Made by a program: the position numbers and the translations under genes. From NCBI GenBank assembly GCA_023262855.1, contig JALQYQ010000062.1, positions 1 through 64,000 on the forward strand: a DNA stretch of 64,000 nt. Reading direction: 5' to 3'. The notes beneath the pieces were generated by a model that worked only from the letters and a program-made list of their open reading frames with translations, made no database searches and had not been told where the DNA came from. Positions within the stretch are counted from its first letter, which is position 1; every line of letters starts with the position of its first letter. The stretch is from Crocinitomicaceae bacterium (GTDB taxonomy: Bacteria > Bacteroidota > Bacteroidia > Flavobacteriales_D > Crocinitomicaceae). Shown here piece by piece: positions 6,621 through 21,505 of this stretch.

Positions 6621-7511
6621 ATGATGTATTACACAGATGAAACAATCGTTTTTTTAAACGGTGAGTATGTTAAAGCAAAAGATGCGAAAGTTGGATTGTT
6701 CAACCAAACAATGCACTATGGAAATGGTGTGTTTGAAGGAATTCGTTCCTATGAAACGCCTGATGGAACGCGAATTTTTAAGGCAAAGGAACATTATGAT
6801 CGTTTGCATTATTCTGCAGAGAAAATGCATATTTCATTGAATTATTCTTCTGAAGAACTTGAGCAAATTACCTACCGTTTGTTGGAATTGAACAGTTTGA
6901 GTGATGCCTACATTCGTCCATTGGTTTTTCTTGGCGAGAACATGTCGCTAACACCTACAGATGATGTAAATGTGGTTATCATGGTCTGGGAATGGGGAAA
7001 ATACCTGGGTGATAAAATGCTGAAAGTGATGCTCTCATCTTATCAACGCCCAAATCCGAAAGCATGTCACGTGCAAGCAAAAGTCGTGGGACATTACACC
7101 AACAGTATTTTAGCAACGACTGAAGCAAAACAAAATGGATTCGACGAAGCTTTATTGACCGATATCAATGGAAACATCGCTGAAGGACCTGGTGCGAATT
7201 TCTTTTTTGAAAAAGAAGGGAAATTGGTTACAGCACCTTTAGGAAATATTCTATCTGGAATTACGCGTGCAACTGTATTTGAATTAGCACAAGAACTAGG
7301 AGTGGAAATCGAGGAACGTTTCTTTAAACCGGAGGAATTGTTATCAGCCGATGCAGCATTTTTCTGCGGAACAGCAGCTGAAGTAATTGGAATAGAATTA
7401 TTCAATGATTATGAATTTCCAATGAAATGGGAAGATACCAATGGTTATTTGATTCAACGAATGTATAAACGTCGTGTTTCAACAAATGAATACAAACATG
7501 TCTATCTGTAA
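6621..7511 (+). CDS. ilvE: Branched-chain amino acid aminotransferase
   Basis: 296 residues, class IV PLP aminotransferase fold. It interconverts Ile, Val and Leu with their 2-oxo acids in the cytosol, the last step of branched-chain synthesis. Visible motifs: [18 protein letters not shown] near the N-terminus, the PLP lysine at about K154 in [11 protein letters not shown], the EGPGANFFF signature around E188, and LSGITR for cofactor phosphate binding. The first gene of the ilv operon, directly behind the attenuator. Two adjacent ATG codons (6621, 6624) are possible starts; either gives a normal N-terminus. The next gene, ilvD, starts 4 bases after the stop. D-amino-acid transaminases share the fold, but the operon settles the call. 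Confidence 0.95.
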
Positions 7512-7515
7512 TAGT

Positions 7516-9189
7516 ATGGAATTAAATAAATACAGTAAAACGATTACGCAAGACGAAACGCAACCGGCTGCGCAAGCAATGTTGTATGGAATTGGTTTCT
7601 CAGATGAAGATTTTGACAAAGCACAGGTTGGAATTGTAAGTACAGGTTATGAAGGCAATACGTGCAACATGCATCTGAATGATCTTGCTAAAAACGTGAA
7701 AAAGGCGGTTGTTGATCAAGAGTTGGTTGGATTGATTTTTAATACAATTGGCGTGAGCGACGGAATTTCAAACGGAACAGAAGGGATGAAGTATTCGCTG
7801 ATTTCACGTGATGTAATTGCGGATTCAATTGAAACGGTTGTGAACGCTCAATGGTATGATGGCTTGATCGCTGTTGTCGGTTGTGATAAGAATATGCCAG
7901 GATCCATTATAGCAATGGGAAGGTTGAATCGCCCAGCAATAATGGTTTATGGTGGAACAATTCATTCAGGAAATTGGAAAGGCGAATCATTGAACATCGT
8001 TTCCGCTTTTGAAGCCCTTGGTAAAAAGTTCAACAATACGATTACCCCGGAAGATTTCAAAGGTGTGATTAAAAATGCGTGTCCTGGTGCTGGTGCTTGC
8101 GGCGGAATGTACACTGCGAATACAATGTCATCGGCAATCGAAGCATTGGGAATGAGTTTGCCTTATAGTTCTTCGAATCCTGCGCTAAGCGATGAAAAAC
8201 AAAAAGAATGTGAAGCAGCTGGAAAAGCCATGCGTTTGTTGCTTGAAAAAGATATCAAACCGCGCGACATCATGACCATGAAAGCATTTGAAAATGCAAT
8301 AACGATGACATTAGTGCTAGGTGGTTCAACAAATGCGGTGCTTCATTTGATTGCAATGGCACATTCGGTTGGTTTGAAATTAACGGTGGATGACGTCCAA
8401 CGCTTTAGCGATAAAACACCCGTATTAGCTGATTTGAAACCGAGTGGAAATTACCTGATGGAAGATCTTCATCGAGTAGGAGGTGTGCCAGCTGTAATGA
8501 AATATTTACTGAAAATGAATTTGCTTCATGGCGATTGCCTCACTGTAACTGGAAAAACAGTGGCAGAAAATCTTGAAACCGTTCCCGATTTGATGGATGG
8601 ACAACAAGTCTTCCATGAAATCAGTAATCCAATTAAGGAAACAGGCCATTTGCAAGTGCTTTACGGAAACTTGGCGAAAGAAGGTTCTGTTGCAAAAATT
8701 AGTGGTAAAGAAGGTGAATATTTTGAAGGAACGGCTGTGGTGTTCGAAGATGAATATACTGTAATTGATGGCGTGAAAGATGGACGAATAAAAGAAGGTT
8801 CTGTGGTTGTCATTCGCTATTGTGGACCAAAAGGCGGACCTGGAATGCCAGAAATGTTGAAACCGACTTCTGCAATTATGGGAGCTGGATTGGGAGCATC
8901 GGTAGCATTGATTACAGATGGTCGTTTTTCGGGCGGAACACATGGATTTGTCGTTGGACATATCACACCTGAAGCATTTGATGGAGGAACAATTGCACTC
9001 GTAGAAAATGGCGATAAAATTTCCATCGATGCAAAGAAAAACACCTTAACCCTTCACGTTTCAGATGAAGTCTTGGCAGAAAGAAAAAGAAATTGGATCC
9101 AACCGGAAATGAAAGTAAAACAAGGCGTTTTGTACCGTTATGCAAAATGTGTGGCCAGTGCTTCTGAAGGTTGTATAACAGATAAATAA
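7516..9189 (+). CDS. ilvD: Dihydroxy-acid dehydratase
   Basis: 557 residues from the ATG at 7516, the standard length; the frame is open back to a GTG inside ilvE, but ATG 7516, 4 bases after the ilvE stop, fits the family. It dehydrates 2,3-dihydroxy-isovalerate and -methylvalerate to the 2-oxo acids using an Fe-S cluster and Mg. Cluster cysteines are visible at C50 ([10 protein letters not shown]), C123 (GCDKNMPG) and C195 ([16 protein letters not shown]). The C-terminal signature [11 protein letters not shown] and the [16 protein letters not shown] motif are intact. Second gene of the operon; ilvB follows after 6 bases. Edd, its relative, is excluded by the neighbours. Confidence 0.96.
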
Positions 9190-17880: not shown

Positions 17881-17963
17881 TTAAGCGTCAATTTAACTGA
17901 ATAGCGAAGGTAGGAATTGTGAAAACAAAACAAACAAGGTTTTAAATCTTACGAATTCATTTT

Positions 17964-18599
17964 CTACTTTTTAGTCGGATTTGTTTCGATCAAAGGACTT
18001 AAACCATTAATACTATCTATATAAGTCATTTCAAAATGTTGATTAAACCAATTTGCTTGTAACAGTTCATTTTTCAAACTGTCAACCTGAATTGGAATGG
18101 AATTTAAACCATTATAAATAGTATCAATTTTTAAGTTGGCAACAAAAAGTTGGTAATTCATTGGTTTTCCTGACTTATCGAATTGAATGTTCAGTCGTTT
18201 ACTTGGATAATCATACCCAAATTCAATTAAACTGTCTTGTTTAAAAGAAAAATACCGATTCCCAATTTCACGTCCGTTTACATAATCGGTAATATTAAAA
18301 TATTCCACTTTCTCTCCAATCGTACCGTATCTAAAAACGTAGGATTTAAATGTCTTGATAGTTGGGCCTTGATAAGGCTTTTTATGATAGAATTTAACAA
18401 TTGAATCATAGCTAGTACCTCCGCCAGAAGATAATGTTATTCCTAAAAATTCAGATGCTTTGTACCCATCTTTATGATCACCGTAATAGGTTGTTTCCAA
18501 TTTTCTATCAGGTAAGTAGCCATAGGTTTTTGAGAAATGATATTCCTTACAACTGCAAACTACATTGAACAAAAATGAAATAGCTATTATGTGCTTCAT
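17964..18599 (-). CDS. Putative lipoprotein of unknown function (possible last cassette gene)
   Basis: 211 residues; the N-terminus MKHIIAISFLFNVVCSCKEYH looks like a lipoprotein signal with a lipobox-like VVCSC. The rest is polar and beta-rich (SKTYGYLPDRK, GGGTSYDSIVKFYHKKPY) and I recognise no family. It begins one base after a sequence (18600-18612) that resembles the R' end of an attC site, so it may be the fourth cassette of the integron-like array described here; this is a weak inference. Confidence 0.6.
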   Translation of the reverse strand: MKHIIAISFLFNVVCSCKEYHFSKTYGYLPDRKLETTYYGDHKDGYKASEFLGITLSSGGGTSYDSIVKFYHKKPYQGPTIKTFKSYVFRYGTIGEKVEYFNITDYVNGREIGNRYFSFKQDSLIEFGYDYPSKRLNIQFDKSGKPMNYQLFVANLKIDTIYNGLNSIPIQVDSLKNELLQANWFNQHFEMTYIDSINGLSPLIETNPTKK

Positions 18600-18724
18600 C
18601 GATTAACTTTTTATCGAAGGTATTAGAAAAAAATCACCTGATACAATTGAATTAAGTAAGACAAAATTTCCAGTTGTGATATTCGCAAAAAACAAATGGT
18701 CTGATAAGCTTGAATCAACGTTAA
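18600..18724 (-). other. Possible degenerate attC site
   Basis: On the minus strand, GTTTAAC (an RYYYAAC core, overlapping the stop of the DUF1905 remnant) lies about 120 bases before AAAAAGTTAATC. The 1-base and 5-base spacers resemble the two good attC sites nearby, but the inner arms (GATTCAAG versus ATCGAAGG) match at only about five of seven positions. A decayed site is plausible, not proven. Confidence 0.3.
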
Positions 18725-19018
18725 ACCAAAAGCGTAATCTGAACCGATTGATTTACTTCAATTCCTTCCTTTTTGCGAATGGCAGTTTTCAAAGGAAGTA
18801 AATAACTGGAGCGTTTTGTGTCGAACCAAATAGCCGTTTCCCATTCGCTTGCACCAATTTTAGCAAGTACTTTTAAGCGTCCCAGCCTTCTTCTTGCCAT
18901 TTAAAATGCGCACGAATCTCTGTAGAAACTTCAACAGGAAGGTCACAAAATACCAACCACCAGGAGCAGCATGTTGCCATGTTAGCGCTGAAAATTCGTA
19001 TGGGATTTTGCTGAGCAT
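18721..19018 (-). pseudogene. DUF1905-family gene broken by two frameshifts
   Basis: Reading the minus strand from the ATG at 19018: MLSKIPYEFSALTWQHAAPGGWYFV, then a one-base loss near 18943 shifts to DLPVEVSTEIRAHFKWQEEGW. A second one-base loss in a G run near 18882 shifts again to RLKVLAKIGASEWETAIWF, ending ...NQSVQITLLV and TAA at 18721-18723. Joined, this is about 99 residues, the normal size of a DUF1905 protein, and includes the family's WGRLKV-like and WFD.KR..YLLPLK motifs. Both lesions are single-G losses in or beside G runs, so sequencing error must be considered. It sits directly after attC2 and would be the third cassette's gene. Confidence 0.75.
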
Positions 19019-19034
19019 TGGTTAAAAGTATTTA

Positions 19035-19111
19035 TTTCAACGTTTTCCAAATAGGCAAAGGCGCTTAACAAGTATAGTGAATTTTGCGCTTTTGATTATT
19101 TGGTGTTAGGT
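19035..19111 (-). other. attC recombination site (attC2)
   Basis: Minus-strand layout: R'' ACCTAAC (19111-19105), one-base spacer, L'' CCAAATA (19103-19097), central part, L' TATTTGG (19053-19047), five-base spacer AAAAC, R' GTTGAAA (19041-19035). R'' fits RYYYAAC exactly; R' fits GTTRRRY except the last base. L''/L' are perfectly complementary, and the 1 versus 5 spacer asymmetry is that of integron attC hairpins. It begins 7 bases after the stop of the XkdF-like gene, as expected for a cassette. R'' is the exact complement of this cassette's own first bases (GTTAGGT at 20460). Confidence 0.75.
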
Positions 19112-19118
19112 GTATTTT

Positions 19119-19889
19119 TCAAATTTGAATTGTTCGATTATTATATTTATTTGATTCATTCCATACCTTGTGACAATGCTTAAGGTTTTCATTACCATTT
19201 AATTCTAACCATCTAACCATAGCAGTTTTTTCTTTCTTGGATAGCGATGGCCCATTATTGACAGTAAACATATCTAATTTCTCATCTGAACTTGACTTAA
19301 TCCAATTTTCCATATTTGGCATAAAAATTTTGCCTAATGATTTCCTTGTATTTTTTTCTTTTAACTCAAAGTGTGCTTCACCATGTTCGTTTCTTCCAGC
19401 ACCATCTGTAGATCCGCCAAACACAAATACATCGAATGGAAGTAGATCAGACAGCTTGTTCATACGTTTAAAATTCTCGTAAACAGTATATTTGTTACCG
19501 TTTTTATCTTCAATTAAGAACCTACCTTCAACACTAAAACCAGTAATTCCTTCATCTTCAAATCTTCGAAGCAGTTCAATGGATTCGAATGTATATTCAA
19601 TCATCCAAGTACCGTCAGGTAAATCTTTGAAAGATTGAGGCAGGTTTGCTCGGTTATCATCTGAAATCAGGAATGAATCAGTTATTTGTACACCATCATT
19701 AATCTTTTCTAAATGGTTTATATTTAGATTTCCTTCTTTGCCATCTTTATGAAACTTATCTCTGTAAAATTCAATTGCATCTTTAGGAATAGACAACTCA
19801 TAAAAACCAATTTCGTCATGATATCTAAGCATTTTCTTGTTAGGTATCATAACAGGACCAAGAATTTTGTTTCGTATTGACAGTGACAC
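19119..19889 (-). CDS. Cassette gene: XkdF-like (phage serine protease-type) domain fused to a DUF4160-like domain
   Basis: 256 residues. Residues 8-130 (GPVMIPNKKMLRYHDE, a helix, NHLEKINDGVQITDSFLI, LPDGTWMIEYTFES, GITGFSVEGRF) match the pattern of the XkdF/Peptidase_S78-like prohead-protease domain, including the NH and GFSVEG elements. Residues 150-245 (FDVFVFGG, GRNEHGEAHFELKEK, then a helix ending NENLKHCHKVWNE) look like a DUF4160-type domain, which carries a similar HxxPHFH-like motif. Both assignments are by eye. No other phage gene is near. It is the second gene of a two-gene cassette, 1 base after the DUF4304-like gene, and is followed directly by attC2. Function unknown. Confidence 0.6.
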   Translation of the reverse strand: MSLSIRNKILGPVMIPNKKMLRYHDEIGFYELSIPKDAIEFYRDKFHKDGKEGNLNINHLEKINDGVQITDSFLISDDNRANLPQSFKDLPDGTWMIEYTFESIELLRRFEDEGITGFSVEGRFLIEDKNGNKYTVYENFKRMNKLSDLLPFDVFVFGGSTDGAGRNEHGEAHFELKEKNTRKSLGKIFMPNMENWIKSSSDEKLDMFTVNNGPSLSKKEKTAMVRWLELNGNENLKHCHKVWNESNKYNNRTIQI

Positions 19890-19890
19890 T

Positions 19891-20433
19891 TTATTTTTTG
19901 GGTTTTGTATTTTTCAATTTATCTAATCTAAATATTTCATTAGATAGCTCAATGTTTTTTTTATTTGAATTTCCATTTATCATTTCAATCAAACTAGCTT
20001 TTTCTTCGTTTCCTAATGGACTATACTTATTGGTTAATAATTCTTTGTCGTCAGCAAACATTGAAAACCAAGGCAATCCAATTGTTTTAGCGTAGTCAAT
20101 AATACTTTGAGTACAAGTGGTAATTGAAGGTTCTTGTTCATCAAACGCCAATTGTCGTTTATTGTTGAATAATTTACCGTTCTTCCACCAACCATCGAAA
20201 CTTGAAGGACCATTTAACGATGCTGCAACAAACGAATCATTTTTAACCCTTATTCCTAAATGAATTCGGAATGAATAATCAAATGAAAAAGTATGTATGT
20301 GAATAAATTGAATAGTATTTGAAAGTTCTTTAACCCAAAAAGTAGATTTTGTTCTATGGAATTCAAGGTCAGCCAAACTAACAGTTATGGCCTTAAAAAT
20401 TCTTTCTTTTTGCTTATTCTTTATCTTGTCCAT
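19891..20433 (-). CDS. Cassette gene: DUF4304-like protein
   Basis: 180 residues. The first 110 residues (FKAITVSLADLEFHRTKSTFWVKELSNTIQFIHIH, then FRIHLGIRV) have the layout of DUF4304-type proteins: a short helix, a 'gf.k....f.r' strand pair and an aromatic-rich sheet. The C-terminus is charged and helical. It begins 27 bases inside the cassette bounded by attC1, and the XkdF-like gene starts 1 base after its stop, so they form a bicistronic cassette. Function unknown; the family is often found in accessory and toxin-immunity-like contexts, but nothing here proves that. Confidence 0.55.
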   Translation of the reverse strand: MDKIKNKQKERIFKAITVSLADLEFHRTKSTFWVKELSNTIQFIHIHTFSFDYSFRIHLGIRVKNDSFVAASLNGPSSFDGWWKNGKLFNNKRQLAFDEQEPSITTCTQSIIDYAKTIGLPWFSMFADDKELLTNKYSPLGNEEKASLIEMINGNSNKKNIELSNEIFRLDKLKNTKPKK

Positions 20434-20453
20434 TCGAGGGTTAATGTCATTAC

Positions 20454-20588
20454 ACCTAACGTTTTGCGCCTATGCGCTCGGCCCAACTTTTAAAGTAAAC
20501 CGTTGCACCGAAGTTAAAGTTTTTTGTTTCTAATTTATTGTTGTTGCGAAGAAAGATCTTGGGCTGGCGCATGAGGCGCTGTTATAGC
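20454..20588 (-). other. attC recombination site (attC1)
   Basis: Minus strand: R'' GCTATAAC (20588-20581), spacer A, L'' arm GCGCCTCATGCGC (20579-20567), GCCCAA (20564-20559), about 70-base loop, TTGGGC (20486-20481), L' arm GCGCATAGGCGC (20477-20466), spacer AAAAC, R' GTTAGGT (20460-20454). The arms pair perfectly apart from one bulged C, the extrahelical-base signature of attC hairpins. The total of 135 bases resembles Vibrio cholerae VCR-size sites. The spacer AAAAC-GTT is identical in attC2. R'' is the exact complement of GTTATAGC at 21246-21239, where the same cassette starts. It lies 24 bases after the stop of the lipoprotein gene. Confidence 0.8.
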
Positions 20589-20612
20589 ACGTTTAATCTT
20601 CTTGTGAATATA

Positions 20613-21209
20613 TTATTTAACAGTACCATCCGTTTTTAAAATACGGAATAGGTTCTTTCTTGTGGCAATTTTCTTTAAAGTTTCAAAAGTCATTTGACCA
20701 GAATAAGTTGCACTATTTAATTTGTAAGAATATCCAAAATCTGGATTCAATGTTTGAACAGTTGTATCTTTTTCATCTATTGTGAAATTGGCATTTTCGA
20801 ACCTTAGACTTTTATCTCTTGAGAATATTTCTGTGTCAGTACTTCCATAGACAAATATATTCCCGCTTCTTTTCTTTTCAATTATTGCTATTTCCCAAGG
20901 GCTATTTTTTTCTCTGTAATTCAATACAAATAGGTTATTAATTTTATATAATTGTACCGTATCACTTAATATTAACTTTTCATACAAAGTATCAAGTCTA
21001 TTCGTTATGGTATCACGATGGCGAGTTTTATAAACAATTATCCCTTTACTTTCGATTATCATTTCAGAATTATCCATATGCCAACTACCTTGTAGCTCTT
21101 TTGGCATTTCACTTAATAAAATGCCTTCTTTCGGTTGTGGTTCAGTGAAATAAATAATCACACAAGAAGATAATATTAAAACTAATATTGTAAACAGGGC
21201 TAGTTTCAT
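20613..21209 (-). CDS. Cassette gene: small lipoprotein of unknown function
   Basis: 198 residues. N-terminal signal with lipobox LSSC (cysteine at residue 16: MKLALFTILVLILSSCVIIY), predicting attachment to the outer or inner membrane. The rest alternates short beta strands (LQGSWHMDNSEMIIESKGIIVYKT and onwards), a lipocalin-like look that I cannot confirm. It is the sole gene of the first recognisable cassette (21246 to 20460) and is followed by attC1. Its AT content and lack of relatives among the neighbours fit acquired cassette DNA. Confidence 0.65.
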   Translation of the reverse strand: MKLALFTILVLILSSCVIIYFTEPQPKEGILLSEMPKELQGSWHMDNSEMIIESKGIIVYKTRHRDTITNRLDTLYEKLILSDTVQLYKINNLFVLNYREKNSPWEIAIIEKKRSGNIFVYGSTDTEIFSRDKSLRFENANFTIDEKDTTVQTLNPDFGYSYKLNSATYSGQMTFETLKKIATRKNLFRILKTDGTVK

Positions 21210-21238
21210 ATGTGTGTAAATTGGGTACTGTACAATGT

Positions 21239-21246
21239 GCTATAAC
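21239..21246 (-). other. Left boundary of the cassette array (R'-like core)
   Basis: GTTATAGC on the minus strand, the exact complement of the R'' end (GCTATAAC) of attC1. In integrons the first bases of a cassette pair with the R'' of its own attC, so this marks the cassette's start. Upstream (21250-21335) AAGTCC/GGACTT form one more inverted repeat, but I find no proper second core. It could be a decayed attC or an attI-like site. The remaining bases to 21505 hold no gene I can support. Confidence 0.5.
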
Positions 21247-21505
21247 TCATATATAAGTCCCACTTCATGATCCTTTTTCGACAAACGCTTGTTGAATAGG
21301 TCTCATTTGGTAGGACTTTTTCGAAAGTACAAATTATTCTTTTAAGTGAAAAGTTGAAAGATTAATTAGAAGATACAGCATGCATTCTTAAGTTTCCTTC
21401 CTCTTCCCAACGCCTTCTTTTCCCCGTAAACTTCCCTATTCAAAAAAAACTGTTAGACACAGCAACTTTTTCGCCCTTATGTCACCACTTTCCTGCGATT
21501 TCCAC

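Follow-up and report, generated by a model that had tools for sequence, protein, structure and literature searches.

The DNA analysed here (the window) comprises positions 1 to 64,000 of contig JALQYQ010000062.1 in assembly GCA_023262855.1 of a Crocinitomicaceae bacterium. On its minus strand it holds a small integron array, in which two cassettes follow an attI-like head; its insertion is precise and its content differs from one species to another. The attI-like site with its leader (21247-21350) comes first, and its 14-bp core, GGACTTATATATGA, adjoins the GTT of the first cassette. Cassette 1 (20460-21245, 786 bp), delimited by the attI-like junction and the crossover point of attC1 (20451-20590), carries a gene for a putative lipoprotein of 198 amino acids (20613-21209). 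Cassette 2 (19041-20459, 1419 bp) has two genes and ends, with the short-type site attC2 (19032-19114), at the point where homology with a related genome, G051, starts. Its first gene (19891-20433) encodes 180 amino acids and, like the lipoprotein gene, has no Pfam match at E 0.1. The second (19119-19889, 256 amino acids) matches Peptidase_S78_2 (XkdF-like; PF14550, 28.5 bits, E 1.7e-6, cut-off 24), a phage protease family that seems an unusual cassette cargo. Just 3' of the array, and also on the minus strand, lies an ancestral DUF1905 gene (18715-19039) with a broken frame, the broken gene itself being placed at 18721-19018, and a PF08922 match in the piece 18724-18900. A first-pass annotation, made from the sequence alone, had proposed a cassette array starting at 18600 in which each gene is followed by an attC. 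The two-cassette array stands, but it extends from 19041 to 21245, and the order of gene then attC holds for cassette 1 and not for cassette 2, where two genes precede a single site.

Both attC sites were found where this annotation had placed them, with the layout of the canonical integron site: paired R and L boxes, spacers of one and five bases, and a G^TT core. Read on the minus strand, attC1 is GCTATAAC-A-GCGCCT(C)ATGCGC...GCGCATAGGCGC-AAAAC-GTT, with a single bulged base, a C in L'', and its stem pairs better in the bulged form (11 versus 6 pairs). On the same strand attC2 is ACACCTAAC-A-CCAAATA...TATTTGG-AAAAC-GTT, and it resembles short sites at loci L136 (11208-11290), L168 (1590-1673, on contig C73 of the same genome) and L097 (5429-5515, in G051). 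It had also been claimed that the first bases of each cassette complement the R'' of the attC of that same cassette, and this is exact in both cases: GTTATAGCAC, with its G at 21246, complements GTGCTATAAC in attC1 (10/10), and GTTAGGTGTA, with its G at 20460, complements TACACCTAAC in attC2 (10/10, of which 7/7 beyond the core). The motif AAAACGTT was found 10 times for 8.95 expected, which is the level of chance, and the motif alone was therefore dropped as evidence. An Rfam scan of the 64 kb gave zero matches.

A covariance model, R1, was built from 15 sites lying near recombinase genes of other genomes and of contig C18 of this genome, the window sites being excluded. Between its first alignment, A1, and the second, A2, five of 20 sites had been dropped: two because their stem was shifted, and three that were divergent or had misaligned loops. 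In the R1 alignment 94.4% of cells are paired, compared to 62.4% after shuffling, and 15 of 18 pairs have changed on both sides. Two-sided changes occupy 72 cells, compared to 20.9 in the shuffled alignment, and sliding the partners leaves 32 to 41% of cells paired. Over the window, R1 gave four matches up to E 5: attC1 with 59.8 bits (E 1e-10), attC2 with 40.9 bits (E 1.1e-6), and two that are background, of 13.1 bits (E 0.98) and 10 bits. A model trained without them thus places both sites above background; the opposite outcome, both scoring as background, is one that the annotation had named as refuting its reading. The two sites lie 1.4 kb apart, as scored by R1 rather than IntegronFinder, and no integron integrase is present in the element, which corresponds to the definition of an integrase-less cluster (CALIN), where two or more attC have to lie no further than 4 kb from each other. 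The annotation had used this term, and no integrase indeed lies beside the array; but the array has an attI-like head and the genome has a candidate integrase on another contig, and the label CALIN alone would miss both.

The borders of the array could be compared with G051, the closest relative compared, which belongs to the same genus (91% identity for a flank protein). The alignment with G051 runs up to 19039, and the first common bases, TGAAAT, immediately adjoin the GT in the core of attC2; the array thus ends at the predicted crossover, within a base. On the other flank, the arsC region is common to both genomes again from 21398. Between these flanks, G051 has about 10.5 kb of different DNA, with attC matches in the same orientation at L097 5429-5515 (47.6 bits) and 7483-7617 (35.0 bits, with a decayed R' end). 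Other genes and attC thus occupy the same place in G051, and the locus is not invariant, so that the second outcome named by the annotation as refuting, a region syntenic and unchanging in all relatives, did not occur either: in both species this is a cassette site of varying content. The DUF1905 gene was considered as a third cassette and rejected, being an old chromosomal gene that is intact and contiguous in G051, where one open frame covers the region (L063 8743-8417, 90.8% identity with two single-base gaps). A second insertion relative to G051 occupies 17892-18714, with a gene for 211 amino acids (17964-18599) between the DUF1905 gene and a CxxCxxCC gene; its edge, GGTTTAAC-GTTGATTC, is junction-like, yet no attC was found there. 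A 74% copy of window 21250-21359 exists on contig C93 of G051 (L098 559-673), with no recognisable cassette, and R1 matched nothing in the 5 kb extracted there. For the gene in cassette 1, homologues were found at E <= 0.001 in four other genomes, 100 family genomes being searched; near these, an attC scanner distinct from R1 gave weak matches only, none of them convincing. A search for cassette-gene homologues inside other cassettes found none in 2.29 Mb; beyond the own copies of the window and of G051, it returned only the same four relatives of cassette 1.

In the whole genome of the bacterium, R1 gave nine matches at E <= 1 on five contigs: one on C18, two on C32 (the window), four on C73, and one each on C59 and C35, the weakest two (E 0.014 and 0.37) both being on C73. 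A limited number of candidates per genome was scored in the R1 searches (150 in this genome, 32 in those of the family, 14 in those of the class), and all attC counts are therefore lower bounds. Contig C73 (L168) carries a short array of its own, comprising at least three attC whose cassette starts are chained, and a stretch of two open reading frames with the look of a putative acetyltransferase.

Contig C18 encodes a tyrosine recombinase of 375 amino acids, the best match to the IntI model in this genome. Behind an attI-like site, 94 bases after the last recombinase codon, a cassette begins with GTTATGGGCA; its attC (131.5 bits, one of the 15 training sites of R1) contains TGCCCATAAC, the exact complement of that start (10/10). 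Repeats upstream of the recombinase gene (L005 1168-1860), at first thought attC-like, were rejected on reading; they are intergenic blocks seen as repeated pseudo-ORFs (open reading frames). The annotation had suggested looking for an IntI gene elsewhere in the genome. None exceeds the cut-off of TIGR02249 in this assembly (94.7% complete), where all four matches lie on C18 and C27, but the C18 gene is a candidate of a kind that the IntI model misses: it reaches 202.4 bits for a cut-off of 265. On the XerA-like model NF040815, described as 'site-specific tyrosine recombinase/integron integrase', it scores 222.4 for a cut-off of 220. An insertion of about 30 columns, which we take to be the I2 domain (patch) of canonical integron integrases, is empty in all four recombinases of this type that were aligned and filled in all six IntI, so that the former lack the domain expected of a canonical integrase. 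The catalytic residues are kept in the C18 protein (R232, K257, H322, R325, H348 and Y357 in its own numbering). The solved structures nearest to it by sequence are XerA (4a8e, 5hxy), then IntI4, then XerD.

In both trees that were computed, the C18-type recombinases and IntI are split from XerC/D with full support; no protein named XerA was included. A 36-row tree nested IntI within the recombinase family (95/94). A 73-row tree, from which L212, L225 and L226 fell out, did not: it grouped IntI with proteins of other phyla (97) and put most Bacteroidia rows in a separate group (86). Since the two trees disagree on whether IntI belongs inside the group, we claim no descent.

The complementarity between a cassette start and the attC of the same cassette was examined on 64 submitted sites (63 from R1 and one from the scanner), of which six were unparsed. 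In 28 of 38 pairs of consecutive attC, 6 or 7 of the 7 bases beyond the core match, compared to 2.6% of random pairings; the window pair gives 7/7. The ten exceptions all have gaps of more than 2.2 kb, where a site was possibly missed. As judged from sequence, this pattern is the footprint expected of circular cassettes inserted successively.

The start of the first cassette was located at 31 of 32 recombinase loci, 21 of them with a 10/10 match ('located' meaning the best GTT with at least 7/10 matches, three of which are supplied by the core). It lies 81 to 131 bp after the last matched recombinase codon at 19 of the 31 located loci, and the bases before it are often TATAAATAA or similar. 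With a 14-bp matrix made from 20 of the 31 located loci, without the window site, the window junction at 21246 came top among 2859 GTT sites, with a score of 10.1, and the junction of the G051 arsC locus ranked second of 690; leave-one-out scores of the training rows range from -3.8 to 14.6. It is thus by position and sequence that these sites are designated attI-like. The usual order at full loci is recombinase, attI-like site about 100 bp further on, and cassettes, all in one direction. At L135, L144 and L145, a gene starting with MNTIKLFES or similar stands between the recombinase and the first cassette, and L134 has the same gene start; where such a gene intervenes, the attI-like site is about 940 bp from the recombinase. 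The motif TAnnTTTG occurs near the recombinase stop codon in 11 of 22 loci, and the full TTTG-N17-23-TAnnTTTG, which we take to be the promoter consensus, in 6 of 22. In the window leader, the script used found neither TAnnTTTG nor TAnnTTTC. For a promoter in the attI-like leader, these counts are suggestive only.

We consider it very probable that these elements belong to an integron variant whose integrase lacks I2, and that the window carries a satellite array served in trans by the C18 recombinase. Most likely, the window array was built by this enzyme, a member of an I2-less integrase family of Bacteroidia. The bottom strand of the attC of a circular cassette would be the one chosen, folding into a hairpin; the recombinase would join, at G^TT, the folded attC and the attI-like site. 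Each new cassette would take the first place in the array, next to a leader in which a promoter may lie.

The linkage of attC to the recombinase genes speaks for this reading. Among 30 recombinase genes, several of whose loci are cut by contig ends, 7 have an attC within 1.5 kb, in all cases 3' and on the same strand; of 33 control loci, 1 has an attC, the positive one being the G051 arsC array itself. In the best 80 loci of named genomes, 30 attC matches were found in 18 loci, and 28 of them (16 loci) are 3' on the recombinase strand, the other two, in two loci, being on the 5' side and the other strand. These loci include Algoriphagus ornithinivorans, Flavobacterium aciduliphilum, Algibacter onchidii, Zunongwangia mangrovi, Winogradskyella ursingii, Aquiflexum and Pontibacter, and the relatives of the recombinase with 3' arrays span several Bacteroidia families. 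In a picked, non-exhaustive set of 30 same-contig pairs from the class genomes, 27 attC are 3' on the same strand, two are 5' on the other strand and one is more than 1 Mb away. Genome G059, a single contig of 4,633,577 bases, has at least 13 attC across 4213904-4319512, ending just 3' of its recombinase gene (4320330-4321373). Separately, 10 of 20 recombinase loci run into a contig end no more than 3.2 kb away on the array side, a pattern that arrays breaking the assemblies would produce.

Among 100 genomes of the family, the recombinase was found in 58 (E 1e-60) and attC in at least 81 (E 1e-4): in 25 of the 26 genomes with a recombinase match of at least 360 bits, in 23 of the 32 with a weaker one, and in 33 of the 42 with none at E <= 1e-60. 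Such attC without a detected recombinase may perhaps be due to draft assemblies, divergence, loss or spread. In 225 genomes of the class, attC was found in at least 160 (100 of 128 genera) and the recombinase in 119. Both were present in 109 genomes, the recombinase only in 10, attC only in 51 and neither in 55 (Fisher P = 2.4e-13, a value inflated by common ancestry).

A recombinase of this type could be a mere passenger or an Xer-type resolvase, the cassettes being moved by another enzyme such as XerC/D or a phage integrase. The 51 of 225 genomes with attC but no recombinase match would fit such a situation, as would the pass on the XerA-like model and the nearness of the solved XerA structures. 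The near-constant position of the gene relative to the first cassette is not explained by it, however, nor is a one-sided linkage on one strand (28 of 30 matches), nor the co-occurrence across the class; moreover, the XerD of this genome is a separate gene on C27, and the 10 kb extracted there gave no attC match. We regard this alternative as improbable.

Slightly less credit still is given to a classical CALIN, in which a canonical I2-bearing IntI inserted the window cassettes and then vanished, the C18 recombinase being unrelated. Here the shape of the attC stem matters, since a passage of PMC4792948 has the I2 domain of canonical integrons recognising the extrahelical bases of attC. Of 48 Bacteroidia sites, mostly from R1, three were unparsed; in the 45 scored, the extrahelical base was absent from 30, unclear in 13 and present in 2. 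In 26 sites from IntI arrays of the phylum, picked among scanner matches with about five plausible ones left out, it was present in 21, unclear in 5 and clearly absent in none. The sites of this comparison came from the scanner or R1, and the test counts pairs only. Absence of I2 and absence of the extrahelical base would thus largely go together, window site excepted: attC1 is one of the two Bacteroidia sites that have the base, and attC2 is unclear. The bulged base of attC1 is what a classical CALIN would show, and CALINs are numerous in other groups, according to passages of the literature. A canonical IntI is also possible in the class, as shown by contig C40 of genome G438 (L032), the sole one of 395 class genomes with a match over the cut-off; in its 20 kb, the scanner gave no site at its first threshold and only weak sites once the threshold was lowered, and R1 had no match at E 0.1. 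Against this, with up to five candidates scored per genome, the IntI cut-off was exceeded in none of 399 order genomes and in 1 of 395 class genomes (in the phylum, in 105 of 395), compared to attC in at least 160 of 225 class genomes. Furthermore, attC lie 3' of the I2-less gene, attC2 and the short C73 sites are like short sites downstream of that gene elsewhere, and the head of the window array fits the Bacteroidia attI-like core.

A reading of the hairpins as mere intergenic repeats or terminators, and not as recombination sites, is very improbable: several attC are much alike in sequence and the genome has other intergenic repeats, but differing sequences keep the same pairing, and both the cassette-start rule and the exact G051 junction would be left unexplained.

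Several points weigh against an I2-less integron variant acting on the window. What the sequences show is the anatomy of the sites, their junctions, the linkage and the distribution; catalysis, and insertion of the window cassettes by the C18 enzyme acting in trans, are inferred. The extrahelical base of attC1, mostly absent from Bacteroidia sites, makes a canonical integron origin of this site possible, and the limit of five candidates scored per genome in the large IntI searches may have let an IntI go unnoticed. Canonical attC, too, draw a weak response from R1, with 11 matches at E <= 0.1 on 20 canonical IntI loci, the best of 34.6 bits. The rows of the attI matrix were chosen by eye, and four of them come from this genome or genus. 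The association is incomplete in both directions, given the 51 class genomes and the 33 of 42 family genomes with attC and no recombinase match, the 10 class genomes with the reverse, and some members of the recombinase family that show no attC, such as L132, where 15 kb of 3' flank contain no match. Finally, passages of the literature, PMC8138268 among them, call the domain missing here necessary or essential.

PMC8138268 is presumably the work of Smyshlyaev et al. 2021. Its passages describe a subgroup of integron-like tyrosine recombinases, some members of which do not conserve the insertion in full, so that the Bacteroidia recombinases may already belong to that subgroup. According to the same passages, integrons need the insertion to function, as an essential element, and nothing is said there of attC arrays for members that lack it. 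Bacteroidota are listed among integron-bearing phyla in passages of PMC8618304 and PMC9668308, and passages of PMC9024848 give for Bacteroidetes only In0 and one complete integron, in Salinibacter ruber, this survey reporting a single complete case in Bacteroidetes proper. The IntI-specific domain is described, in passages including PMC9668308, as defining and as the target of IntegronFinder. In the open-licence literature, a scope that excludes subscription papers and preprints, we found no report of attC arrays with an I2-less integrase; an earlier description is possible.

Compared with known systems, the arrays share with canonical chromosomal integrons the attC layout (R'', 1 base, L''...L', 5 bases, R'), the cassette-start rule, the G^TT junctions, an attI-like first site adjoining the integrase gene, and long arrays in one orientation. 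They differ in that the integrase lacks I2 and falls under the IntI cut-off, that the array is 3' of the gene and in the same direction, that 30 of 45 scored stems have no extrahelical base, and that the larger tree puts the integrases outside the IntI clade. With CALINs, the window array shares two attC within 4 kb and no integrase beside them; unlike CALINs, it has an attI-like head, and a candidate integrase exists elsewhere in the genome. With XerA and XerC/D, the C18-type enzymes share a two-domain tyrosine recombinase core without I2, and differ by an N-terminal extension of about 100 residues and by their linkage to attC arrays.

With less assurance than for the window itself, we lean towards an integron system extending over the whole class Bacteroidia, in which an I2-less integrase recombines attC hairpins, most of them without an extrahelical base, and which would be either a surviving form of the state before I2 and the extrahelical base co-evolved, or an independent adoption of attC-type sites by an Xer-like recombinase. 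A common integron variant of Bacteroidia, with an I2-less presumptive integrase, is the wider and more surprising result. This presumed integrase lacks the additional domain by which integron integrases are held to be defined, which has a bearing on integron evolution. The co-evolution of I2 and the extrahelical base is termed a chicken-egg paradox in a passage of PMC4792948; an I2-less enzyme heading attC arrays that mostly lack this base would, if true, make the question directly testable. Tools that require the IntI-specific domain would then label these arrays CALINs or miss them, and integrons would occur across much of a major bacterial class, together with a big unexplored pool of cassettes.

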